Positions 1 to 29,531 of a stretch of 33,122 nt of DNA are shown here, in pieces. The notes under the pieces were generated by a model that ran no database searches, was not told the origin of the DNA, and was given only the letters and a program-made list of their open reading frames with translations. Made by a program: the position numbers and the translations under genes. Location of the stretch: the IMG/VR virus record IMGVR_UViG_3300030430_004599, positions 1 through 33,122 of that record; one strand, 5' to 3'. Origin of the DNA: a virus. How positions within the stretch are numbered: position 1 is the stretch's first letter; every line of letters starts with the position of its first letter.

Positions 1-211
1 CCCGCCCCACCTGCCTTACCTTTCCGGGCCTTGCACCGCCCCGCCATACCGTCTGCTGCCAATCCACACCTGCCTCGCCGTGCCCAACAAAACCGTTGCT
101 CACCAAGCCTGGACAATCCCAGCCCTACCTGCCTTACCAGGCCATACCTGCTCGTGCCACAACATGACTTGCCGCAGCCCGCCTCAGCTGCCAAGCCAAA
201 CCTAACCCAAC
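1..211. repeat. Period-5 CC-rich repeat tract (NNNCC; GGNNN on minus strand)
   Basis: This non-coding, C-rich, degenerate repeat runs to the window edge, so its full length is unknown. CC dinucleotides keep a 5-base register in four blocks, each shifted by one base. They begin at 14, 19, 24, 29, 39, 44, 49, 59, 64 and 69; then 73, 78, 83, 93, 103, 108, 118, 123 and 128; then 132, 137, 142, 147, 157, 172 and 182; then 191, 196, 201, 206 and 211. The 11-mer cctgccttacc occurs at both 10-20 and 128-138, and gccatacc at 43-50 and 141-148. A 5-base period is incompatible with coding. The tract starts right at the stop codon of the leftward operon, so it would be transcribed as a GGNNN-repeat 3' tail. 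No hairpin terminator is visible in it. Function unknown. Confidence 0.85.
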
Positions 212-715
212 CTAAGCATCATTCAGATGATCTTTGATCGGGTCGAGCACACCGGCCAGCTCAGACAGCTGGTCGTATTTGTTGACGAACTGTTGCAGCT
301 CGCGCTTGGCAGTCGCCAGGATTTGTGCCCGGTATTCTGGATCCTTCATGGCTTCGACGGTGCTCACATACGATCGCACCGTTTTGCCCGCGTCGTTTTT
401 GTGAGCGACGCTCGTAAAGACCCGCAGTCGTTTGGGTTCGTACTCCTTGGGAACGTCTTGGGTGCAGACATACACAAGCGATCGCTTGATACGCTTCTCG
501 GTTTCAACGCGCTGCTGCGCAGCGGCGACAGAATCGTCCCACTCGAACTCGTTGTGCAACACAGAGTCCGGGCTCCTGGCGTGATCGACCAGTTTGCCGA
601 CCGGCGCCACCCCACCCCACTCTGCATTGAGCGATTCGATTTCCTGGAGAGCAAGGTTGGGGTCTGCCTTGAAGACAGACCCCTTTGCCCACTCAACGAT
701 GGTGCCGCCGCTCAC
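212..715 (-). CDS. Conserved phage protein with 'LHNEFEWDD' motif, unknown function
   Basis: This 167-aa soluble protein starts at GTG (713-715), overlapping the stop of the upstream gene as GTGA, so it is translationally coupled to the RAMP-like protein. Residues about 36-80 hold a motif pattern I recognise from many phage genomes: an Ala-rich 'DHARSPDS' stretch, then LHNEFEWDD, then a helical segment ending in RIKRSLV. Residues 83-115 look like beta strands, and residues 125-165 are a charged, helical tail. No enzymatic residues are recognised. The strict coupling suggests that it works with the upstream product. The gene ends against the period-5 tract. It could instead be a DNA-recombination accessory protein, since relatives often sit in early regions; this is inference. 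Confidence 0.85.
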   Translation of the reverse strand: MSGGTIVEWAKGSVFKADPNLALQEIESLNAEWGGVAPVGKLVDHARSPDSVLHNEFEWDDSVAAAQQRVETEKRIKRSLVYVCTQDVPKEYEPKRLRVFTSVAHKNDAGKTVRSYVSTVEAMKDPEYRAQILATAKRELQQFVNKYDQLSELAGVLDPIKDHLNDA

Positions 716-1323
716 GCGGCTTCTTCGAGAATGGCGAACTCGCGATCGAGTCTGAAGCGACCGAACTCACCACCCTTTTCTGGTCTCCACTCACCGAGTC
801 CGATACCAAAGCCAGCCCGCTCGATCAGATTCAAGATCGCCGATTGAGTCAGTGCCTTGGAGTCATACTCGAACTTGAGCGTCATCGCCCAGTTCGTGAA
901 CATCGGTCGATAGCGTAGATCGGTGGATCCTGATCCGACTCGCACTACGTCCTCCCGCATAACGGGCTCGTCAGTCTCCAATGCCACCAGGTTGTTTTCG
1001 AAGTCGTCGGGTCGAATGAACAGAGACTTCTTGAGGAGGGTCTTTTCCAAGCCGATGTCCTTGTGCGCTGCTCCGGTCAAGCATGCTTTAATTCCACCTG
1101 CCGGGAAGCCATAACGGCCGTCCGCCAATTTATACGATGCGTTACGAAACTCTTGTTCCGGTTCTCGAGCGTCTCGATTTTTGACGCGAATACCAGCGTG
1201 CTTGTCACGCATCATTTGCAACGCCTTTTCATCCCACTTGTGTTGAATGAATGGACTGGTGCCCTCGATTCGCACAGTCATGAGGGTCTTTTCGATCGGT
1301 TCCAAGGTAATGATGTTACCCAT
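712..1323 (-). CDS. Putative RAMP/Cas7-like RNA-binding protein, stand-alone phage form
   Basis: This 203-aa protein is preceded by an AGGAG site (minus strand, 1334-1330) 6 bases before its ATG. Three features recall the RAMP superfamily of ferredoxin-fold RNA-binding proteins (Cas5, Cas6 and Cas7 groups). The N-terminal strand MTVRIEGTSPF runs into a helix at residues 31-43. Residues 73-84, FPAGGIKACLTG, match the pattern of the 'PGSSLKGALR' segment. A C-terminal glycine-rich loop, GFGIGLGEWRP then GGEFGRF, spans residues 171-190 and resembles the RAMP G-loop. A middle motif, DLRYRPMFTNW (135-145), precedes a predicted strand. No cas gene or CRISPR array is present. I recognise the family as a recurrent phage protein without a firm function; the RAMP assignment is inference from motifs. 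Confidence 0.55.
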   Translation of the reverse strand: MGNIITLEPIEKTLMTVRIEGTSPFIQHKWDEKALQMMRDKHAGIRVKNRDAREPEQEFRNASYKLADGRYGFPAGGIKACLTGAAHKDIGLEKTLLKKSLFIRPDDFENNLVALETDEPVMREDVVRVGSGSTDLRYRPMFTNWAMTLKFEYDSKALTQSAILNLIERAGFGIGLGEWRPEKGGEFGRFRLDREFAILEEAA

Positions 1324-1463
1324 TTTTTTCTCCTAGCCCGCAGGCTTTTACTGATAGTTGTTGAGCCCGAGTTATCTCGAGCGACGCGGACTTTTCCAGG
1401 GTTGCGTGTCATTGTCAACACTTTTATACAAAAAAATACAAAAAAATTTATTTGCAAAAATAG

Positions 1464-1492
1464 TTGCACAACGACACGGTGTTGTGCATAAT
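1464..1492 (+). promoter_or_regulatory. Sigma70-type rightward promoter
   Basis: The -35 box TTGCAC (1464-1469) and -10 box CATAAT (1487-1492) are separated by exactly 17 bases. Transcription would begin near 1499, about 35 bases before the first rightward gene. It is the best promoter match seen in the control region and probably drives the two small genes and the recombinase. Confidence 0.6.
1466..1487. promoter_or_regulatory. Inverted-repeat operator candidate inside the promoter
   Basis: The arms GCACAAC (1466-1472) and GTTGTGC (1481-1487) form a perfect 7-bp inverted repeat with an 8-base centre. It fills the space between the -35 and -10 boxes and touches both. The size and placement are typical of a binding site for a dimeric phage repressor, which would block RNA polymerase. 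No repressor gene is recognised here; the small downstream proteins are the only local candidates. Confidence 0.5.
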
Positions 1493-1534
1493 TCCTTCGT
1501 TGGCGCGATTTTGCGTCGTTTTTGAGGAAAAGTG

Positions 1535-1780
1535 ATGAAGACAGCATTGATGTGTGCTTTTGCAAAGAAGTTCAACTTGAGCCCCAAAGAGGCTTTGTTG
1601 TTGCCTGGTCTATTCCAGGTCGCAGCTCAAAAGACTGAGCTGGGTGAGGAGGAGCTGATGAAGAAAGCTGGGTTCAACCAGGAGCTTGGCGAATACATGG
1701 TTCAGATGGTCAAGCAGGTTGCCAAGACTGATGAAGCAGAGGAGGAATACCAAAAGTTTCTCGAGGAGCAAGCAGGGTGA
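1535..1780 (+). CDS. Small acidic helical protein, unknown
   Basis: This is the first gene of the rightward early operon, 81 aa from ATG 1535. A GTG lies directly in front at 1532, but the GAGG site at 1524-1527 is better spaced for the ATG. The sequence is almost wholly predicted helical: an N-terminal segment with FNLSPKEALLLPGLF could form a compact helical unit, followed by acidic helices rich in Glu and Lys. The length and fold would suit a small regulator or an anti-host peptide, but no clear helix-turn-helix signature is seen. Its stop overlaps the GTG of the next gene. Not recognised. Confidence 0.7.
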   Translation: MKTALMCAFAKKFNLSPKEALLLPGLFQVAAQKTELGEEELMKKAGFNQELGEYMVQMVKQVAKTDEAEEEYQKFLEEQAG

Positions 1781-2010
1781 GCGTCGAAGCAAAAAAAGTG
1801 TTCTACAATCGAGTGCGTCGAACCTGCCTGAAGCATGGCATCGACATCGTGTACCATGGGATGCCGAAAGCTGTCATGGCAATCGAGCTGATCAAAGACG
1901 GTGAGGTGGTGTGCTCCGATCGTACGGACAACAACCGGCCGCTGGACATACCCTGGAAAATGTTCCACATGGAACTTTCTGAACTTGGTTACACAGGAGG
2001 CGTGAAATGA
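1777..2010 (+). CDS. Small unknown protein, coupled early gene
   Basis: This 77-aa product starts at GTG 1777, which overlaps the upstream stop (GTGA), so the two genes are co-translated. The sequence shows a basic N-terminal helix (KKVFYNRVRRTCLKHG), then alternating strands (IDIVYHGMPKAVMAIELIKDGEVV), resembling a small alpha-beta domain. It overlaps the ATG of the recombinase gene by 4 bases, which places it in the same transcript. A role as a recombination directionality factor or regulator is possible by position only. No family is recognised. Confidence 0.7.
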   Translation: MSVEAKKVFYNRVRRTCLKHGIDIVYHGMPKAVMAIELIKDGEVVCSDRTDNNRPLDIPWKMFHMELSELGYTGGVK

Positions 2011-2798
2011 GTGGACGACCGCTCAAGCAGATAAACAACATTTACGGCTATGTGCGAGTGTCGACTGACGAACAGGTCAAGTCTGGCATTTCGCTTGAGA
2101 CGCAAACGGAGCAGATCAACCAGTTTGTGCGTGACAAGTATAACCGAGAGGTCACGCAGTTCTTTAGCGACGAGGGCGTTTCTGGCACTCACGCTGTTGT
2201 TGATCGTCCCGCGAGTCGGGAGCTGACAGATGTGATCGACGAGCATGACGTCGTTGTTTGCACTCGATTAGACCGTTTGTCTCGCTCCACTTCTGACCTC
2301 TTGGGGTTGATCCCGGTCTTGCAGGAAATCGGCATCACGCTGTACTTCTGTGAACAATTCGGTGACATGCCGATCGTTTATCCAGGCGCTGGGCAATCGA
2401 AAGGCCTGGAGTCAAAGTTCGATATGAACTCAATGACGAATCAGATCATGATGATGGTCTTGTCGGCTGTAGCCGAGATTGAGCGCGCTACGATCAAGGA
2501 TCGGTTCGCAGCCGGTAAGCTCGACTGGGCTTCTCGCGGGTACGCGATCGGCGGTTCCGCTCCTTATGGCTACAAGCACGTCGAGGTGAAAACAGGCAAC
2601 AAGACGCGACAGTTCCTCGAAGAGGTGCCGGAAGAGCAGGAGATCTTGGAAGCGATCTACAAGCTTCACGATCGCGGACTTGGCCCGCGCAAGATAGCAA
2701 ACGAAATCAACAGTCTTTACGACGTCAAGCCCTTCACACACTCCAAGATTCAGCGCATCTTGGGCCGCAAATTCCAGGGTTTGCGTCAAGCAGCCTGA
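2007..2798 (+). CDS. Serine recombinase (resolvase/invertase family)
   Basis: This 263-aa site-specific DNA recombinase uses a catalytic serine to break and rejoin DNA. The resolvase domain begins at Y13-GYVRVSTDEQ; Ser19 is the nucleophile and Arg17 the conserved partner. The TRLDRLSRS block (86-94) carries the other active-site arginines. The long E helix region is about residues 140-175 (ending in VAEIERATIKDRFAAGK). Residues 180-260, starting at the G-SAPYGYK motif, are the start of a 'recombinase' DNA-binding domain. The protein is longer than Hin/Gin invertases (about 190 aa) and much shorter than large serine integrases (450 aa or more), and it lacks a zinc-ribbon domain. It could be an integrase for a temperate lifestyle, or an invertase acting on the adjacent tail genes. 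Confidence 0.92.
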   Translation: MSGRPLKQINNIYGYVRVSTDEQVKSGISLETQTEQINQFVRDKYNREVTQFFSDEGVSGTHAVVDRPASRELTDVIDEHDVVVCTRLDRLSRSTSDLLGLIPVLQEIGITLYFCEQFGDMPIVYPGAGQSKGLESKFDMNSMTNQIMMMVLSAVAEIERATIKDRFAAGKLDWASRGYAIGGSAPYGYKHVEVKTGNKTRQFLEEVPEEQEILEAIYKLHDRGLGPRKIANEINSLYDVKPFTHSKIQRILGRKFQGLRQAA

Positions 2799-2809
2799 CG
2801 GCTATGATG

Positions 2810-2828
2810 GTGGCCTCCTGGAGGCCAC
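2810..2828. repeat. Near-perfect 19-bp palindrome after recombinase
   Basis: The arms GTGGCCTCC (2810-2818) and GGAGGCCAC (2820-2828) flank a single T. The palindrome lies 12 bases after the recombinase stop and directly before the next start codon; the ggagg also sits 5 bases upstream of ATG 2830 and can serve as its ribosome site. As RNA it would form a 7-bp stem without a U run, so it is not a classic terminator. It could be a crossover or attachment site for the recombinase, or a translation-control hairpin. Confidence 0.55.
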
Positions 2829-2829
2829 T

Positions 2830-2964
2830 ATGACCGACGACGAAAAACTAGCAGAAGCAATTCGGATCCTCGAAGATTCACTTGCAACTGACTTCATGAC
2901 AGATTCGGTTCGGGACATCATGACCCGAGCTGTCGCGCATCTGAAAGATCTCCAAGGCGCCTAG
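2830..2964 (+). CDS. 44-aa small acidic protein
   Basis: This short ORF runs from ATG 2830 to TAG 2962-2964. It is preceded by GGAGG within the palindrome and overlaps the next gene's GTG by one base. The product is acidic and predicted all-helical (starts MTDDEKLAEAIRILED, ends AVAHLKDLQGA), compatible with a coiled coil. The ribosome site plus tight spacing on both sides supports real translation. No function is recognised. Confidence 0.6.
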   Translation: MTDDEKLAEAIRILEDSLATDFMTDSVRDIMTRAVAHLKDLQGA

Positions 2965-3554
2965 TGTCCAGCGAAACTCTCACAGGCTGGGGGCGCGGCA
3001 CCTGGGGCGAAGCTGCCTGGGGCACGCCTCTTCCGGTTGAGCCCGCCGGAGTCCAGGCAGCTGTAAGCGTCGGATCCGTCAGTGTCGTTGCCAAAGCTAA
3101 CGTCGTTCCCACCGGCCAAGCGGCCACCGCCTCACCAGGCTCTATTCAGATCGTCGCAAAAGCGATCACGCAAATCACCACCGGCGTCAGTGGCACGACT
3201 GCCGTGGGATCAGTCACGACCGTGGCAAAAGCAACCGCGTCTCCGACTGGAGTCGGAGCGACATCGGGTATCGGTTCCGTTACGACGATCGGCAACAACA
3301 ATATCGTTGTGGATGGGCAACAAGCGACTGCGAGCGTGGGTAACATTGAGCCTGTGGGCGGAGCGATCGTCCAGGTCACTGGTCTTGGAGCGACTGCTTC
3401 CGTTGGGTTCATCAACGTCTATGGCGAGATAGACACAAACCAGACACCAAACTACACTGTTGTGGATGATAGTCAGACTGCGAGTTATTCCGCAGTCAGT
3501 ACAAATCAGACGCCGAACTACACAGAACTTGATGCAGGGCGCTCAGCAGCATAA
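2964..3554 (+). CDS. Repeat-containing tail structural protein
   Basis: The 196-aa product uses GTG 2964, one base inside the previous stop. The N-terminus has a TGWGRGTWGEAAWG motif (7-20), also found in other tail proteins of this window. Residues 29-159 are six repeats of about 22 residues, each with the pattern G-x-x-A-T-x-x-x-G-S-V, then hydrophobic strand residues, then polar residues and P-T. This is a beta-repeat shaft as in fibrous virion proteins. The C-terminus carries NQTPNYT twice (near 161 and 180). The position before the long fibre gene suggests an adaptor or part of the tail fibre. No enzymatic role is seen. Confidence 0.8.
   Translation: MSSETLTGWGRGTWGEAAWGTPLPVEPAGVQAAVSVGSVSVVAKANVVPTGQAATASPGSIQIVAKAITQITTGVSGTTAVGSVTTVAKATASPTGVGATSGIGSVTTIGNNNIVVDGQQATASVGNIEPVGGAIVQVTGLGATASVGFINVYGEIDTNQTPNYTVVDDSQTASYSAVSTNQTPNYTELDAGRSAA
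3048..3440 (+). repeat. Six about 22-aa tandem repeats inside tail protein
   Basis: The coding repeats begin at residues 29, 51, 74, 96, 118 and 140 of the 2964-3554 product. The consensus is an initial Gly, Ala-Thr at positions 4-5, and Gly-Ser-Val near positions 9-11. The repeat is clear in protein but diverged in DNA, which indicates an old, functionally held expansion rather than a recent slip. Confidence 0.7.
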
Positions 3555-7271: not shown

Positions 7272-7733
7272 TTGATTATTGAAAGCGTCGCAGCAGCCGG
7301 CCTCATTCTGAAACAAATATCAGACACGGTGGCCGCAGTGAACGAGGGCCGAGCTTCTATCGAATCGGCCATGGGTCTCATCGCAGATTTCGGATCTGGG
7401 CTAAACGAATTTCAACAATCTAGAGCGACTGGCTTCAGACCTCTCAGTAACGGCGATATCTTGAAGCTCTCTATGTTGCGGAGGTCGCAGGAGCGATACG
7501 AAACCGATTTGCGAAATATAATGCTCGTCATGGATTCTCGCTTGCTCGAGCAATATGACCAGATGGTCGCCGAAAACAGGCGAAAGCATAGGGAGCACCA
7601 AGCACTCATGGCGAAAAAAAAGAGGCAGAGAGAGAAATTGCAGCAACAGATCGCTGTCGGTCTGCTGACTCTAATCATCGGCGGGGGCATTTGTTTAGGC
7701 TTATTCGTCTTAGTGATTAAGGCTTTTGGGTGA
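7272..7733 (+). CDS. C-terminally anchored helical protein, unknown
   Basis: This 153-aa protein uses a TTG start at 7272; no ATG or GTG exists between the previous in-frame stop and this position. It is predicted helical throughout, with an N-terminal amphipathic part (VAAAGLILKQISDTVAAVNEG), a coiled-coil rich in Arg/Lys/Gln at residues 95-127, and a C-terminal TM helix (VGLLTLIIGGGICLGLFVLVI). The charge pattern suggests the long helix lies in the cytoplasm. I have seen similar proteins in lysis regions of marine phages but know of no demonstrated function. Confidence 0.65.
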   Translation: MIIESVAAAGLILKQISDTVAAVNEGRASIESAMGLIADFGSGLNEFQQSRATGFRPLSNGDILKLSMLRRSQERYETDLRNIMLVMDSRLLEQYDQMVAENRRKHREHQALMAKKKRQREKLQQQIAVGLLTLIIGGGICLGLFVLVIKAFG

Positions 7734-7828
7734 GTCGGTTGGAAAAAATTCTGTGGACACTCCTGATCAGCGGCATAGCAGGGCCAACATTTTTGTTTGC
7801 CGCCAGTTACTGGCTGAACATGCCATGA
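7730..7828 (+). CDS. 32-aa single-TM miniprotein
   Basis: The ORF runs GTG 7730 to TGA 7826-7828. Its start overlaps the stop of the preceding gene (GTGA) and its stop overlaps the next ATG (ATGA). The peptide is mostly one membrane helix: MSRLEKILWTLLISGIAG then PTFLFAASYWLNM. Coupling at both ends is the main evidence for translation. A tiny membrane peptide in a lysis cassette could be a pinholin, an antiholin or a spanin-related piece; none can be claimed. A longer reading in another frame through this stretch is rejected. Confidence 0.6.
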   Translation: MSRLEKILWTLLISGIAGPTFLFAASYWLNMP

Positions 7829-8040
7829 TCATGGCTTTCTTGCTTGTTGTCGTGGTAGACAACGCGCAACTCGAAGAGCGTTTTTTTTTCCGCACCGTGG
7901 ATAGATGCAATTTCTTTGCACATATGATTGAGTCGGGGCAGTATAAAATGGTGCAAAATAATAGACTATCATCACAACAAAACGTGACGGCGTACTGCAT
8001 ACCAAAGTATGCGCCGCCTAATACGAAATTCTGGGACTAG
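7825..8040 (+). CDS. 71-aa protein with N-terminal signal/TM segment
   Basis: Start ATG 7825 is chosen because it overlaps the stop of the preceding miniprotein (ATGA). The protein opens with a hydrophobic segment, MIMAFLLVVVV, then a polar domain with two cysteines (RCNFF at about 32 and AYCIP at about 57) and the ending KYAPPNTKFWD. The layout suits an exported or membrane-anchored periplasmic protein with a disulfide, and could be a spanin-like or superinfection-related factor. No family function is known to me. Confidence 0.65.
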   Translation: MIMAFLLVVVVDNAQLEERFFFRTVDRCNFFAHMIESGQYKMVQNNRLSSQQNVTAYCIPKYAPPNTKFWD

Positions 8041-8042
8041 AA

Positions 8043-8369
8043 ATGGCACAGAAGCAGCTTGAGCCATATTCGGAGTACAGTAAATTCGATAAAAATAACG
8101 ACGGTGTGGTGTCGGACGAAGAACTGGAACTCTCACGTCAATTAGAGGAGCTGAAGCTATCCAGCGAAAAGGCAGACGCACAAAGAGGCATGGCTTGGTT
8201 CGCGTTGTGGGGCATGCTTCTCTACCCGTCGATGGTGGTCGGAGCCGAGTACTATGGTCTAACGCAAGCCAGCTCAATTCTGGGTGACATGGCTGCGGTG
8301 TATTTTGCAAGCGTTGCGGCCATCGTCGCGGCGTTCTTTTCGGCGCAAGCTTGGGCAAGCAGGAGATAA
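8043..8369 (+). CDS. EF-hand protein with two TM helices, holin-like
   Basis: The 108-aa product combines a calcium-binding loop and a membrane hairpin. Residues 15-27 (FDKNNDGVVSDEE) fit a canonical EF-hand loop: Asp, Asn, Asn, Gly and a closing Glu at the expected spacing. A helix (residues 28-45) follows, then TM1 (MAWFALWGMLLYPSMVVGAE) and TM2 (MAAVYFASVAAIVAAFFSAQ). The gene starts 2 bases after the previous stop. The two-TM hairpin and position next to holin and endolysin genes suggest a class II holin or antiholin whose activity could respond to calcium; this is inference. Confidence 0.7.
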   Translation: MAQKQLEPYSEYSKFDKNNDGVVSDEELELSRQLEELKLSSEKADAQRGMAWFALWGMLLYPSMVVGAEYYGLTQASSILGDMAAVYFASVAAIVAAFFSAQAWASRR

Positions 8370-8370
8370 C

Positions 8371-8727
8371 GTGTATCACTACAAAGCCAAGCTAGTTCGA
8401 GTCATTGATGGCGATACGATCGACGTGGACATCGATCTGGGGTTCGACGTTTGGTTGAAAAAGCAACGCATCAGGCTTGCAGGTATCGACGCTCCAGAAT
8501 CTCGCACTCGCAATAAAGCAGAGAAGGCCTTGGGTTTGGCGGCAAAAGCAAGACTGACAGAGCTTTGTTCTGGTGAGATGCAGCTTGAGTCCCTTGGGAC
8601 AGGCAAGTATGGCCGCATTTTGGGCATCCCAAAAACTTTAGACGGCATTAGCATGTGCCAGATTCTGATCGATGAGGGCCATGCCGTTGAATATGAGGGT
8701 GGCAAGAAAACTAAAGTTTGGGCGTAA
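8371..8727 (+). CDS. Staphylococcal-nuclease-like nuclease (SNase domain)
   Basis: The 118-aa protein is a bare SNase (thermonuclease, OB-fold) domain, which cleaves DNA or RNA with a Ca2+ cofactor. The GTG start at 8371 follows AGGAGA (8361-8366) by 4 bases; a longer in-frame reading is unlikely. Active-site residues are visible: the VIDGDT motif (11-16), Arg35 and Glu43 in RLAGIDAPE, Asp40, and Arg82 within GKYGR. No signal peptide is seen, so it probably acts in the host cytoplasm, for example on host DNA or recombination intermediates. An SNase inside the lysis cassette is known in some phages but its purpose is unclear. Confidence 0.88.
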   Translation: MYHYKAKLVRVIDGDTIDVDIDLGFDVWLKKQRIRLAGIDAPESRTRNKAEKALGLAAKARLTELCSGEMQLESLGTGKYGRILGIPKTLDGISMCQILIDEGHAVEYEGGKKTKVWA

Positions 8728-8752: not shown

Positions 8753-9133
8753 ATGAGCAGCCTGCTCACTTCGCTCGTCGGCCCCGTAACGGGACTGTTG
8801 GATAAGTTCATCGAAGACAAGGATCAGAAGGCGGCTTTGGCGCATGAGATCTCAACTATGTCTGAGCGCCACGCCCAGCAGCTTGCGTTAGAGCAAATAG
8901 AGGTGCTCAAGCTGGACGCGCAGGGTAATTGGTTTCAATCGAGTTGGAGACCGCTTGCGGGTTATACATGCGTGTTGGGACTGATGGTCAATTTTCTCAT
9001 CAGCCCTATCGCAGCGGGATTTGGATTAGCCATTCCTCAAGCCGATGCAGGCGTGATGATGCCTTTGCTTCTTGGCATGTTGGGGTTGGGCGGTGCCAGA
9101 TCATTCGAACGTGTTAAAGGCGTGGGTAAATAA
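8753..9133 (+). CDS. Three-TM holin (GTA_holin_3TM type)
   Basis: This 126-aa protein starts at ATG 8753, preceded by AAGGAG (8741-8746) at 6-base spacing. A helical N-terminus (LLTSLVGPVTGLLDKFI then many charged residues) leads to the signature GNWFQSSWRPLAGYTC at about 62-77, a hallmark of the holin family described from gene-transfer agents. Hydrophobic helices at about 75-95 and 102-120 follow. Holins open the inner membrane so the endolysin can reach the wall. It sits directly before the endolysin, whose ATG starts at the last base of this stop. Confidence 0.85.
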   Translation: MSSLLTSLVGPVTGLLDKFIEDKDQKAALAHEISTMSERHAQQLALEQIEVLKLDAQGNWFQSSWRPLAGYTCVLGLMVNFLISPIAAGFGLAIPQADAGVMMPLLLGMLGLGGARSFERVKGVGK

Positions 9134-9579
9134 TGCGGGTGACAAGCAGCGAGGGTATCGCCCTCATCAAAAAATTCGAAGGCTGTGAGCTTGAGGCATA
9201 TCAGTGCTCTGCTGACGTATGGACAATCGGGTATGGCCACACCTCGGGCGTTGCACAGGGCGACACCTGCACCGCAGAAGATGCAGAGTCAATGCTCACT
9301 GAAGATCTTCAGAAGTTCGAGGGATATGTGAACGACCTGGTTGATGTTGATCTTTCACAAAATCAGTTCGATGCACTTGTCGCTTGGACTTACAACCTCG
9401 GCCCCGGCGCTTTGAAAGAATCGACTTTGCTCCGTAAGCTCAACGAAGGCGATTACAAAGACGCCCCCTATCAGATCAAACGCTGGAACCGCGCGGGGGG
9501 TAAGGTGTTGGACGGCTTGGTCAGAAGGCGCGAGGCAGAGGCTTTACTTTTCAAGGGACTGCCCTGGGAAGATGTCTGA
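9133..9579 (+). CDS. Endolysin, phage lysozyme (GH24) with catalytic Cys
   Basis: This 148-aa T4/R21-type lysozyme cleaves the glycan strands of peptidoglycan. The triad pattern E-x8-D/C-x5-T is met by Glu16, Cys25 and Thr31 in the region FEGCELEAYQCSADVW followed by TIGYGHT. The family more often has Asp at the second position; a Cys here is a known variant. The remainder (NQFDALVAWTYNLGPGAL, GLVRRREAEALLF) matches the conserved lysozyme core. There is no signal-anchor segment, so export depends on the holin. It overlaps TerL by 8 bases. Confidence 0.93.
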   Translation: MRVTSSEGIALIKKFEGCELEAYQCSADVWTIGYGHTSGVAQGDTCTAEDAESMLTEDLQKFEGYVNDLVDVDLSQNQFDALVAWTYNLGPGALKESTLLRKLNEGDYKDAPYQIKRWNRAGGKVLDGLVRRREAEALLFKGLPWEDV

Positions 9580-11056
9580 GGTCTCTCTCAAAGATTTCGA
9601 GATTCTCAGCGAGCAAGATCAGAATGAGGCGTTGGCCCTGCTTTCTCGTTACGAGCAGATGGAGAAGCAGGAAACCTGTCAGTCTGATTTCATCGAGTTC
9701 GTCAAACACATGTGGCCCGAGTGCATTCTGGGCCGTCACCACAAAATCATTGGCGACAAGTTCAACAAGATCGCCCAGGGCAAACTGAAAAGACTGATCG
9801 TTTGTTTGCCGCCTAGGCACAGCAAATCTGAGTTTGCGAGCACATACTTTCCCGCCTGGATGATGGGTCTGCGCGGCGATCTCAAAATCATTCAGACGAC
9901 GCACACAGCAGAGTTAGCCGTGCGTTTCGGTCGCAAGGTCAGAAATATCATCGACTCTGATGATTACTCTCAGGTCTTTCCCGATCTGAAACTTCAGGCT
10001 GACAACAAATCAGCAGGACGGTGGACGACCAACCAGGACGGTGAATCATTTTATGCTGGTGTGGGTGGCGCTATCACAGGGCGGGGTGCTGATCTGCTGA
10101 TCATCGATGACCCGCATTCTGAGCAAGACGCGCTATCTCCTACCGCCATGGAGTCCGCGTATGAGTGGTACACCTCTGGCCCTCGCCAGCGTTTGCAGCC
10201 TGGCGGAATCATCATCATCGTTATGACGCGATGGAGCACCAAAGATCTGGTGGGCAAGGTGCTGAAAAAACAAGCTGATGATCACGCCGATCAGTGGGAG
10301 GTCATCGAGTTCCCCGCGATAATGCCTGAGTCAGATACACCCCTGTGGCCCGAGTTCTGGAAAAAAGAAGAATTGTTATCTGTGAAAGCCTCTTTGCCGG
10401 TGAGCAAATGGAATTCACAATGGATGCAGAACCCGACTGCCGAGGCGGGCTCGATCGTGAAAAGAGAATGGTGGCGTCTGTGGGAGCGAGATTATGTCCC
10501 GGCGTATGAATACGTCATTCAGAGTTACGACACCGCATTTTCGAAAAAAGAGACCGCCGACTATAGCGCCATCACTACCTGGGCGATCTTTGAGTCACCC
10601 GATGACGACCACCAAGCGTTGATTTTGCTGGACGCGAAACGAGTACGGCTAGACTTCCCAGAGCTGAAAAAAGTTGCGTATGACGAGTACCGCTACTGGG
10701 AACCGGACTGTATTTTGATTGAGGCAAAGGCTAGCGGAACGCCGCTGACGCAGGAGTTGCGCAGAATGGGGATCCCGGTTACAGCATATACACCAAGTCG
10801 AGGTCAAGATAAGATCGCTAGGATGAACTCAGTGGCTCCCATTTTTGAGAGCGGCATGGTATGGGCGCCGGACGAAGCCTTCGCAGACGAGGTAATCGAA
10901 GAGATGGCCTCGTTCCCGTTCGGCGACAATGATGACTATTGTGATTCCGCGACCATGGCATTGATGCGGTTTCGGCAGGGCGGCTTCTTAAGCCTCAAAG
11001 ATGATTACCAGGAGGAAGCCAGCTTCATGAAAAGAAACAGACAGGTATATTACTAA
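9572..11056 (+). CDS. terL: Terminase large subunit
   Basis: This is the 494-aa packaging motor: an ATPase that drives DNA into the prohead and a nuclease that cuts concatemers. The ATPase domain has a Walker-A-like PPRHSKSE (80-87), Walker B LLIIDDP (175-181) and the coupling motif MTRW (219-222). The RNase-H-like nuclease domain shows Asp320 in QSYDTAFS, Glu384 in ILIEAKASG and an acidic cluster in DDYCDSAT (454-461). The length is normal. It begins inside the endolysin gene and ends one base before the portal ATG begins. No small terminase subunit is recognisable nearby. Confidence 0.96.
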   Translation: MSEVSLKDFEILSEQDQNEALALLSRYEQMEKQETCQSDFIEFVKHMWPECILGRHHKIIGDKFNKIAQGKLKRLIVCLPPRHSKSEFASTYFPAWMMGLRGDLKIIQTTHTAELAVRFGRKVRNIIDSDDYSQVFPDLKLQADNKSAGRWTTNQDGESFYAGVGGAITGRGADLLIIDDPHSEQDALSPTAMESAYEWYTSGPRQRLQPGGIIIIVMTRWSTKDLVGKVLKKQADDHADQWEVIEFPAIMPESDTPLWPEFWKKEELLSVKASLPVSKWNSQWMQNPTAEAGSIVKREWWRLWERDYVPAYEYVIQSYDTAFSKKETADYSAITTWAIFESPDDDHQALILLDAKRVRLDFPELKKVAYDEYRYWEPDCILIEAKASGTPLTQELRRMGIPVTAYTPSRGQDKIARMNSVAPIFESGMVWAPDEAFADEVIEEMASFPFGDNDDYCDSATMALMRFRQGGFLSLKDDYQEEASFMKRNRQVYY

Positions 11057-20749: not shown

Positions 20750-21098
20750 GCCCCAGGGTGGTCTGAAAAAATGGTTCGGCAAGGGTAAGGGTGGCGACTG
20801 GGTAGACATTGGCGCCCCGAAAAAAGATGGCAAGTTTCAGTCCTGCGGTAGAGCTAAGGCTGAGGGGTCGAAACGCAAATACCCAAAATGTGTACCGCGA
20901 TCGACTGCGAAACAGATGACGAAAGGCGAGATCAAATCCGCAGTGACTCGCAAGCGGAAGAAGAAGCAGGGTGTTGGGGGCAAGCCAACCAACGTTAAAA
21001 CTTTCCTTGCCAATGGTGGCGCGGTGATGATCCAAGCGCGAGGGTGTGGTGCTATTATGCCCGAGAAACAAAAGATGACACGAGTGCCGAGGAGTTGA
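20742..21098 (+). CDS. Basic conserved protein, 'WVDIGAPKKDGKF' family, RGCGA tail
   Basis: This 118-aa, Lys-rich product starts at GTG 20742, overlapping the previous stop. Its core, GDWVDIGAPKKDGKFQSCGR (in part), followed by SKRKYPKCVPRSTAKQMTK and a Lys/Arg cluster RKRKKKQ, is a widespread family of marine phages and large algal viruses. Two cysteines (SCGR and KCVP) could bind metal. The final 27 residues, with VMIQARGCGAIMPEKQKM, repeat the previous protein's C-terminus. The shared tail suggests a common partner. It overlaps no gene downstream; the next ATG is 2 bases on. Confidence 0.78.
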   Translation: MAKPQGGLKKWFGKGKGGDWVDIGAPKKDGKFQSCGRAKAEGSKRKYPKCVPRSTAKQMTKGEIKSAVTRKRKKKQGVGGKPTNVKTFLANGGAVMIQARGCGAIMPEKQKMTRVPRS

Positions 21099-21100
21099 GC

Positions 21101-21643
21101 ATGAAAAGATCGGAGACCAAAAAGGCCGTCAAAGATTTCAAGGATCGTAGCCGTCGCACCATGCGGAAAGCCCCAGAGGCTCTCGGGAAAGAAACCGGCG
21201 CGATGCTCACCAAAAAAGAAATGGGCGAGGCGGTTCGAAGGATGCTCGGGAAGGAATCTGGAGCGGCGTTGTCTGAAAAGGATCTAGCAAGCTTAGGTTT
21301 GCGTGTCGATCCTCTCGATAGAATGCAAAGCGGAGGAGCTATGAAAAAGAAAAGAATGAATGCTAAAGGCATGATGGCTGGCGGGAAGATGAAGGCCAAA
21401 GGCATGAAGGCCGGAGGCAAGATGAAAGCGAAAGGCATGATGGCTGGCGGCAAAATGAAAGCCAAAGGCATGAAAGCCGGAGGCAAGATGCAGGCCAAAG
21501 GTATGGCGAAAGGCGGAAAGATGAAAGCCAAGGGCATGGCGAAAGGCGGAAAGATGACCACCAAGGGTTACGCAAAAGGCGGTGCAGCTGGCGGTATGAG
21601 AAAGCCTTCAAATAAAAATAGCGGATTGTATGGCCGCAGATAG
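21101..21643 (+). CDS. Lys/Gly/Met repeat protein
   Basis: The 180-aa product starts at ATG 21101, supported by GAGGAG (21089-21094) at 6 bases; a longer frame start at 21044 is not needed. Residues 1-75 form a charged helical domain (ETKKAVKDFKDRSRRTMRKA, LTKKEMGEAVRRML). From residue 87 seven 11-residue repeats follow, with consensus AKGM-x-x-GGKM-K, giving a highly basic tail. It ends MRKPSNKNSGLYGRR. Such Lys/Gly repeats occur in marine phage genes of unknown role; nucleic-acid condensation inside the head is a reasonable idea. Confidence 0.75.
   Translation: MKRSETKKAVKDFKDRSRRTMRKAPEALGKETGAMLTKKEMGEAVRRMLGKESGAALSEKDLASLGLRVDPLDRMQSGGAMKKKRMNAKGMMAGGKMKAKGMKAGGKMKAKGMMAGGKMKAKGMKAGGKMQAKGMAKGGKMKAKGMAKGGKMTTKGYAKGGAAGGMRKPSNKNSGLYGRR
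21332..21343 (+). promoter_or_regulatory. Internal Shine-Dalgarno plus ATG within the repeat gene
   Basis: GGAGGAG (21332-21338) lies just before an in-frame ATG (21341-21343) inside the 21101 gene. Initiation here would give a 100-aa product made only of the basic repeat domain (starts MKKKRMNAKG). The spacing from the GGAGG core is 4 bases, a bit short but workable. Whether it is used is unknown. Confidence 0.45.
21359..21589 (+). repeat. Seven 33-bp tandem repeats within the Lys/Gly gene
   Basis: Seven 33-base units encode 11 residues each, from N-A-K-G-M-M-A-G-G-K-M to T-T-K-G-Y-A-K-G-G-A-A. Units 1-4 alternate between MMAGG and MKAGG forms, and units 5-6 share MAKGG, so there is a higher-order pair pattern. 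The DNA copies are close, which suggests recent slippage or recombination. The copy number is likely to vary between relatives. Confidence 0.85.
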
Positions 21644-27639: not shown

Positions 27640-29531
27640 TGGAACTTGAACAGGCGCTGATGAGGGTATACGACCAGAAAGACGCTCAGAACATGAGCGG
27701 TTTTGCTGAGGGCGGTACTGTCGTCGAATCAGAGACACAGACTACCCCGGAAATGGATCGCATGTTGATGGAGGCGCAACAGGGCGTCGCCGAAGGAGCG
27801 CAGCAAGATCCGAACGCATCCCTTGTAGAATATATCGATGAACTGTTGGCTCAACGAGATCAAGCAGAAGACTCGAGTGAACGCGCTCAAATCGAGCACA
27901 TGGCAGACGCGGCAGTACTGAGCCAAGAGGCGCCGATGGCGGCGCAAGCTTTCGAGATTGCGGCGCAAGGCCGAGGTGAAGACACGGCACTGGCTCACCT
28001 GCGACCTGGCGAGGTCGTTCTTCCACCCGAAATGTTTGACGACCCAGACTTCGAACGCATGGTCGAGAGCCGTTTCGGCGAACTGGATCTTGATCCAGAG
28101 GCGCACGTTGTTGGGCTGGGTATCGCAAGTCTGAACCCGATCACTGGCCTGGAAGAGTTTGGCTTCCTCAAGAAAATCGCGAAAGGCATCAAGAAGGTCG
28201 TCAAGAAGGTCGTCAAGCCGATCGCAAAAGTCGCTCAGTTTATACCTGGCCCCTGGCAACCAATCGCAGCCATGGCAAACAAAGCTTTCACGGTGTACGA
28301 CGTCGCTAAGGGGAGAGCCAATCCTCTAAGTTTATTGACTGTTGCTGGCCCGCTGGCCACTGGTGGTGGTCTTGGCAAAAATATCGCAGACATCAAAAGT
28401 GCAGGAGGTGGCAGTTTTCTCGGCGGTATCGGTAAAAGTCTGACGGGTACGGGCTCTGCTTTACGCGGTGGTATTGGGAGTTTGTTTTCGAACCCAGTAG
28501 AAGCGTTGAGCAAAGACCTGCCCAACCTTTTGAGAACTGCAAACTATCAAGGTATGTCACCTGCCGAAAGAACAAAAGATGCCGTAACCCGCCTGCGGGA
28601 GTTGACCAAAGATCCAAAAATAAACGAATTGGTTCAAGGATTTCGAAAGTCTGGTCTCGGCCCTGTTCAGCAAATACAGGCTCTGCAACAAGCGGGAGCT
28701 GGCGGATCGGTGTTCGGCAACATTTTGAGCGGGCAAACGACGCTGGGTAATGTCCTGGGCGGAATTGGCCAACCGGGCGCGCAAAGTGGCGGCAGTTTGG
28801 GTGGCTTTTTGGGCGGAGGCCAAGGTCAAGGCGGCTTAGGTGGTCTTCTTGGTGGGGGCCAGGGCGGCGGTCTTGGCGGCTTGCTGGGCGGCGGAGGTGG
28901 GATCGGCGGATTGCTAGGGGGCGGTCGCGGCGGTGGTTTTAACCTGGGAACGCTGGGGGCGCTTGGTGCGGCTGGTCTGATTGGCAAACTCGCCTATGAC
29001 GAAGCTAAGAATATGCGCGGCGTGCCCCTCACTCCGCTCACACAAGAAGGCTCGACAGGCCGATACAATATTGAAGCCGAGATCGCGCGTCGCATGGGCA
29101 AAGAGGCGCCCAACCCTGTTGAGTTTGGGTTGTTACCAGAGGGCACAATACCAACTCTGAGCGGCGGGAGAAGGGCTCCAGAGCGAGAGCAAGAGCCCGT
29201 CATGCAGAGGCGTTACGGTGGCCCGGTCATGGCGTTCGCCGAGGGAGGCGACGTTGCAATAGAAGATTTCAAAAGAATGGATGGCCCGATAAACGGCCCT
29301 GGCACAGAAATCAGTGACGATATTCCAGCGATGCTTTCTGACGGAGAATTTGTCATGACTGGTCGCGCCGTGCGCGGCGCTGGGGCATTCGATCTTCAAA
29401 AAGGCGACGGTGGCATTTTGACGTTGACGCCGAATGGAGCGGAGAGCAGGGACAAAGGCACAAATCTAATGTACGAAATGATGGAGCTGTTTTCTGAGTT
29501 CGCTGACAAGCCGAAGAGGTCAGCGGCATGA
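27636..29531 (+). CDS. Ejection-type virion protein with membrane-active segment
   Basis: This 631-aa protein has an acidic, helical N-terminal region, then LRPGEVVLPPEMFDD (127-141), followed by an amphipathic, Lys-rich stretch at about 178-205 (FLKKIAKGIKKVVKKVVK then PIAKVAQFIPG) and a hydrophobic region AMANKAFTVYDVAKG. A Gly/Leu-rich repeat lies at about 385-438. The C-terminus carries DIPAMLSDGEFVMTGRAV (569-586) and RGAGAFDLQKGDGG, a motif family common in marine phages. The pattern suits an internal virion protein that crosses membranes during DNA delivery. The product starts with the ATG overlapping the previous stop. Confidence 0.7.
   Translation: MMELEQALMRVYDQKDAQNMSGFAEGGTVVESETQTTPEMDRMLMEAQQGVAEGAQQDPNASLVEYIDELLAQRDQAEDSSERAQIEHMADAAVLSQEAPMAAQAFEIAAQGRGEDTALAHLRPGEVVLPPEMFDDPDFERMVESRFGELDLDPEAHVVGLGIASLNPITGLEEFGFLKKIAKGIKKVVKKVVKPIAKVAQFIPGPWQPIAAMANKAFTVYDVAKGRANPLSLLTVAGPLATGGGLGKNIADIKSAGGGSFLGGIGKSLTGTGSALRGGIGSLFSNPVEALSKDLPNLLRTANYQGMSPAERTKDAVTRLRELTKDPKINELVQGFRKSGLGPVQQIQALQQAGAGGSVFGNILSGQTTLGNVLGGIGQPGAQSGGSLGGFLGGGQGQGGLGGLLGGGQGGGLGGLLGGGGGIGGLLGGGRGGGFNLGTLGALGAAGLIGKLAYDEAKNMRGVPLTPLTQEGSTGRYNIEAEIARRMGKEAPNPVEFGLLPEGTIPTLSGGRRAPEREQEPVMQRRYGGPVMAFAEGGDVAIEDFKRMDGPINGPGTEISDDIPAMLSDGEFVMTGRAVRGAGAFDLQKGDGGILTLTPNGAESRDKGTNLMYEMMELFSEFADKPKRSAA
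28789..28950 (+). repeat. Gly/Leu-rich coding repeats (GGLGGLLGGG)
   Basis: The reading frame contains four or five related units of the form GGLGGLLGGG(Q/R)GG between Gln/Gly spacers. The units are degenerate in DNA (gg-rich). It is a low-complexity, flexible, hydrophobic segment within the ejection-type protein. Copy number may vary between relatives. Confidence 0.65.

Follow-up and report, generated by a model that had tools for sequence, protein, structure and literature searches.

VIPR, first described in April 2026 (preprint PMC13142463), is a phage-borne, RNA-guided DNA-binding system of which seven types are distinguished, few of them studied by experiment. Its Vipr protein is a small, early-branching relative of the RAMP proteins, of about 20 kD, which has a RAMP/RRM fold with a G-loop and a thumb and which co-purifies with guide RNA. 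The guide RNAs, or vrRNAs, are built from 9-16 repeats of alternating GGY and NN, with GGY conserved and NN hypervariable, and the NN pairs read double-stranded DNA with one base skipped; accessory genes, vap1-6, adjoin vipr. In type II, the clade of Escherichia phage SUSP1, each vrRNA carries a conserved structured 3' tail (PMC13142463).

We are highly confident that the locus at positions 1-1323 of a 33-kb viral contig (33,122 nucleotides, the whole stretch analysed, hereafter the window) is a phage-borne VIPR system with vipr, an accessory gene and a guide array of its own, and it belongs to this already known, very recently described kind. The terminase encoded by the record is closest to that of phage 023Pt_psg01 (63%), followed by those of Pelagibacter phages HTVC027P and HTVC023P (57-58%), and since the genomes of these relatives are 57-61 kb, the record may lack about half of the genome. 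VIPR is thereby extended to a partial phage genome with a terminase resembling those of Pelagibacter phages; no Pelagibacter phage stood among the 40 of 157 GenBank phage records listed as matching Vipr. Elsewhere in the window, a predicted protein rich in Lys and Gly (21044-21643, plus strand) contains tandem KAKGMKAGGKM repeats.

The vipr gene, its partner gene and their layout

The vipr gene is an intact ORF that runs on the minus strand from its ATG at 1323 to 712, encoding a 203-residue, RAMP-related protein of the Vipr family. The protein matches phrog_4652, a family without known function, at 1.4e-34, and has no significant match in Pfam, NCBIfam or PADLOC. Its sole PDB match is 36pp, the 'SUSP1 Vipr protein' (phmmer 4.4e-10, residues 14-191 of 203); a profile from 35 homologues matches SUSP1 Vipr at 2.5e-14, and a profile of the larger family does so in hhalign at 99.8% and 7.8e-29. 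Judged by these alignments, the protein is a homologue of SUSP1 Vipr and not the stray Cas7-like protein of the original prediction, which had placed the ORF correctly and to which the minus strand must be added.

That prediction had singled out two segments as RAMP-like, FPAGGIKACLTG (residues 73-84) and GFGIGLGEWRPEKGGEFGRF (residues 171-190), and both are borne out as conserved cores of a large family. The stretch from G171 to G188 holds most of the 17 invariant columns in the alignment of 35 homologues, so that the G-loop-like segment is conserved at the sequence level, and P74 and K79 are conserved in at least 90% of the aligned homologues; the motif reading therefore goes beyond chance pattern-matching. 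Comparison of the Vipr profile with those of Cas7, Csm3 and Cas5, a profile check of the kind that had been proposed, gave hhalign probabilities of at most 0.2%, which is decoy level for these shallow RAMP alignments of 7-9 sequences, though the best register, itself not significant, aligned FPAGGIKACLTG on the RAMP motif IPGSSLKGVLRS and so agreed with the proposed motif placement. Because the direct comparison is not significant, the RAMP relation of the window protein, and with it the predicted RNA binding, is drawn from the homology to SUSP1 Vipr and from the preprint (PMC13142463).

The protein had also been described as stand-alone, which does not hold, since a conserved partner gene lies between vipr and the array. 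This vap-like accessory gene (212-715, minus strand; 167 aa, phrog_15946) has a putative accessory role, and in 85 of 91 loci a member of its family adjoins vipr; a search with the accessory protein alone retrieved four new loci, all with vipr and an array. Compared with SUSP1 vap1 it reached an hhalign probability of 2% over 30 columns, and its profile finds no match in SUSP1, so that at the level of sequence the two accessory proteins are unrelated.

On the minus strand the order is vipr (1323-712), accessory gene (715-212) and array (212-1). The GTG start of the accessory gene overlaps the vipr stop by 4 nt, and the first G of the array is the last base of the accessory gene's stop codon, a layout that suggests a single transcription unit of vipr, vap and array. 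The rightward genes, which begin at 1532, diverge from this operon, and the 'early operon' of the original prediction was thus loosely right, in that there is an operon, of two genes and an array, but a separate one on the minus strand. In the divergent intergenic region, at 1459-1499, lies a dyad motif (TTGCACAACGACACGGTGTTGTGCATAAT), seen as TTGCACAACGACACGG..TGTTGTGCATAAT, which is possibly a phage promoter or operator; it has counterparts at the equivalent place in two related loci (L001, 4532-4575; L002, 4338), and in L001 it recurs past the array, at 2364. A serine recombinase with a resolvase domain is encoded near the VIPR locus and divergently from it (2007-2798, plus strand).

The guide array and its occurrence among relatives

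The locus had been taken to have no array, and yet a GGY/NN guide array, of a non-CRISPR kind, runs from the stop codon of the accessory gene to the end of the contig (212-1, minus strand). A dynamic-programming parse of the minus strand found 43 units before the array runs off the contig end, with a score of 71.2 versus 11.9 +/- 3.8 in dinucleotide shuffles (maximum 30.4; 0 of 2000 as high). GGY is perfect in 30 of the 43 units, and about 30% of units deviate from it. The array opens with a leader block, GGTTG GGTTA GGTTT GGCTT GGCA (189-217), which overlaps the end of vap and is nearly invariant in close relatives, and continues with three complete blocks, each of 12 units and 59 nt: block 1 (130-188; NN pairs GA GG GC AA AT GT AC CA AT CT AA), which ends in GGCA, block 2 (71-129; AG TG TT CA TT GA AC TT TG AC GA) and block 3 (12-70; GT TT AG AC AT GG GG AA CC AA AA). 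The record end cuts block 4 after its start (1-11). Blocks 1 and 3 have homologues in L001 and L002, and block 2 is absent at the corresponding place in both, while the rest of their arrays lines up with the window array block for block; whole blocks are thus gained or lost between close relatives.

A structured 3' tail of the SUSP1 kind was found neither at the junctions from block to block nor where arrays end. The folding stability of the window array and of the complete L001 array lies about 1.5 sd above shuffles, an excess so small that we make no claim about array RNA structure, and Rfam gave no matches in window positions 1-3000, so that there is no known ribozyme there.

Among the loci with Vipr homologues that were fetched (54 viral and 48 genome), a strong array lies within 2 kb of vipr in 85 of the 92 that have at least 700 nt downstream, and all 95 arrays within 2 kb are on the vipr strand. 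Farther from vipr there was one strong array in 673 kb, and a scan of 273 kb of other phage DNA returned none. The identical scan at a lower score threshold recovers the vrRNAs of SUSP1, with one lying upstream and three downstream, in agreement with the published layout (PMC13142463). Arrays upstream of vipr, alone or beside a downstream one, occur in L022, L025, L027, L028, L041, L050, L051 and others (13 upstream arrays overall), and under a permissive parse two arrays are very large, with about 740 units in L054 (8398-12045) and about 540 in L019 (4845-7507); the array region of L054 moreover contains a second Vipr-like ORF, a divergent one (ORFs 7586-8386 and 8844-9587). Pentamer arrays have several open frames and give rise to false repetitive ORFs such as MAMRGVAGSGRARHGMAGLG (L022, L025, L027, L035, L050), a likely source of mis-annotation of which annotators should be warned.

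Guide blocks across the family mostly have 8-14 pentamers, with up to 18 in close relatives. They are joined through a 4-nt step that shifts the 5-nt phase and that is nearly always GGCA|GGY (349 cases). Conservation of GG is 0.92 and 0.88 in the first two units of a block and 0.89 and 0.98 in the last two, against 0.63-0.77 in mid-block, and AA, AT and AC are favoured as the NN that immediately precedes the GGCA unit. Substitutions were counted in 37 pairs of homologous blocks from the family, pairs that are related to one another rather than independent events. The rate per site is 0.054 at the first G, 0.065 at the second and 0.088 at Y, versus 0.176 at each of the two N positions, so that NN sites change about 2-3 times more often than GGY; C/T exchanges account for 25 of the 39 changes at Y. 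A retained GGY with a variable NN is the pattern predicted by the published code.

Proposed mechanism, targets and alternative explanations

The original prediction had the RNA-binding module reused for a different task, a reading at odds with the position of vipr beside an accessory gene and a guide array of its own, which points to RNA-guided DNA recognition as the likely task of the window Vipr. The vipr-vap-array unit would probably be read leftward into a single RNA that starts in the divergent intergenic region; its expression, like any processing of the RNA, we infer. Vipr subunits would bind the array RNA, presumably one per GGYNN pentamer, with GGY held and the NN pairs exposed, and by analogy with SUSP1 VIPR, from which RNA binding, reading with a 1-nt skip and repression are taken (PMC13142463), successive NN pairs would read double-stranded DNA with one base skipped between pairs. 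Once bound, such complexes would keep competing phages or satellites in a shared host from transcribing their genes.

In the clade of the window locus guide blocks of about 9-18 pentamers are chained directly, and the conserved 4-nt step (GGYNN GGCA|GGYNN) probably delimits each Vipr filament or guide. Since the GGCA|GGY step breaks the 5-nt Vipr register, we propose that it sets filament ends and guide boundaries. In its full form, in which the phase shift punctuates tail-less VIPR arrays, separating guide from guide without a structured tail, and in which neighbouring guides share the junction pentamers, the proposal is a tentative one, with the balance somewhat against it. In tail-less arrays sequence phase alone does seem to mark the guide boundaries, and about 100 related loci now form a large comparative set for this tail-less, phase-shifted array form; if the junction rule is true, guides could be parsed automatically from such arrays, making target prediction possible.

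With 261 distinct blocks and skips of 0-3 nt, a search of the relatives' loci with arrays masked gave no excess over shuffled guides, and no block had a near-full match in the window or in the relatives' loci. In viral contigs, the matches to exact 1-nt-skip patterns taken from stretches of the three window blocks numbered 0, 6, 42 and 9, none agreeing beyond 19 of 22 bases, and the pattern from a block common to L010, L012 and L013 had no near-full match. These five pattern scans yielded partial matches at chance level, as calibrated by a single shuffled-NN scan, in which the control of one pattern gave 19 matches versus about 18 distinct genes for the real pattern. Two target candidates, GANIVTHILK (L115) and CFHLETFC (about 20 copies of one gene), are consistent with chance and were set aside.

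An array that serves self-regulation, aimed for instance at genes of its own phage or of a prophage rather than at competitors, would fit with targets of the window blocks not being found in the scans made, and the preprint reports that a Vipr aimed at a repressor can also trigger induction (PMC13142463). We consider this improbable, though not negligibly so, given that no near-full block match occurs in the window or the relatives' loci, and that in two clades the reported targets are mostly those of competitors (PMC13142463). Very unlikely is a RAMP-derived RNA-binding protein exapted elsewhere, such as in mRNA regulation or as an anti-CRISPR, that works with no guides and has the repeats nearby by accident; the motif reading and the lack of a target for the window blocks are compatible with it, but the linkage of array and vipr in 85 of 92 loci, invariably with a shared strand and with almost no arrays elsewhere, and the difference in substitution between NN and GGY both speak against it. 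A genuine CRISPR-Cas relic or a mini Class 1 effector on a phage, to which the RAMP-like motifs would lend themselves, as would the non-significant register on the PGSSLKG motif of Csm3-type proteins, can be practically dismissed, as the array is a pentamer code with no CRISPR repeats, PADLOC matches none of the four neighbouring proteins tested, Vipr has no Cas match in Pfam or NCBIfam, and the Cas7, Csm3 and Cas5 comparison is at decoy level.

Comparison with described systems

Among other RNA-guided systems, TIGR-Tas, as far as its description goes, is alike in being phage-borne, RNA-guided DNA targeting with tandem guide arrays, and is set beside the window locus by that description; the window protein matches the Vipr family instead. 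The RAMPs of Class 1 CRISPR systems (Cas7, Csm3/Cmr4, Cas5) share with the window Vipr a glycine-rich loop, the positions of PGSSLKG-like motifs and the logic of binding an RNA guide, but the profiles are not significantly alike and the window Vipr has just about 200 aa. The array of the locus is of the GGY/NN kind and not a CRISPR array, and in this record, which covers part of a genome, PADLOC finds no cas genes among the four neighbouring proteins tested.

Within VIPR, the phase-shift punctuation of tail-less arrays may be the part that is new. The 'staggered arrays' named in the preprint (S18 of PMC13142463) may, going by the phrase itself, already cover a phase-shifted, tail-less architecture and possibly that of the window array.

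The closest described relative is the type II VIPR of Escherichia phage SUSP1 (KT454805; PMC13142463; PDB 36pp), whose vipr gene is at 28474-29061 of KT454805; ALH47003, considered as SUSP1 Vipr, proved wrong. The SUSP1 sequence also contains a gene-free stretch of 1.7 kb (L064 27919-29614; record 72919-74614) with recurring TCTAACAAG/CTTAACA-like motifs, which are not GGY/NN. Both hallmarks of type II, the structured 3' tail and a SUSP1-type vap1, are absent from the window locus: the SUSP1 vrRNAs are separate and tailed, with one upstream, whereas the window blocks are tail-less and chained by GGCA|GGY phase shifts, and SUSP1 vap1 and the window accessory protein belong to unrelated families. 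The C-terminus of Vipr reads GEWRPEKGGEFGRF in the window protein versus GDWRPRFGRF in SUSP1. The window locus nonetheless has a Vipr protein, a GGY/NN array with complete 12-unit blocks, the contrast between GGY and NN, and an accessory gene beside vipr, and it is like SUSP1 VIPR in a Vipr that is homologous over nearly its full length, in the order vipr-vap-array, in a guide RNA of GGY/NN pentamers and in being encoded by a phage.
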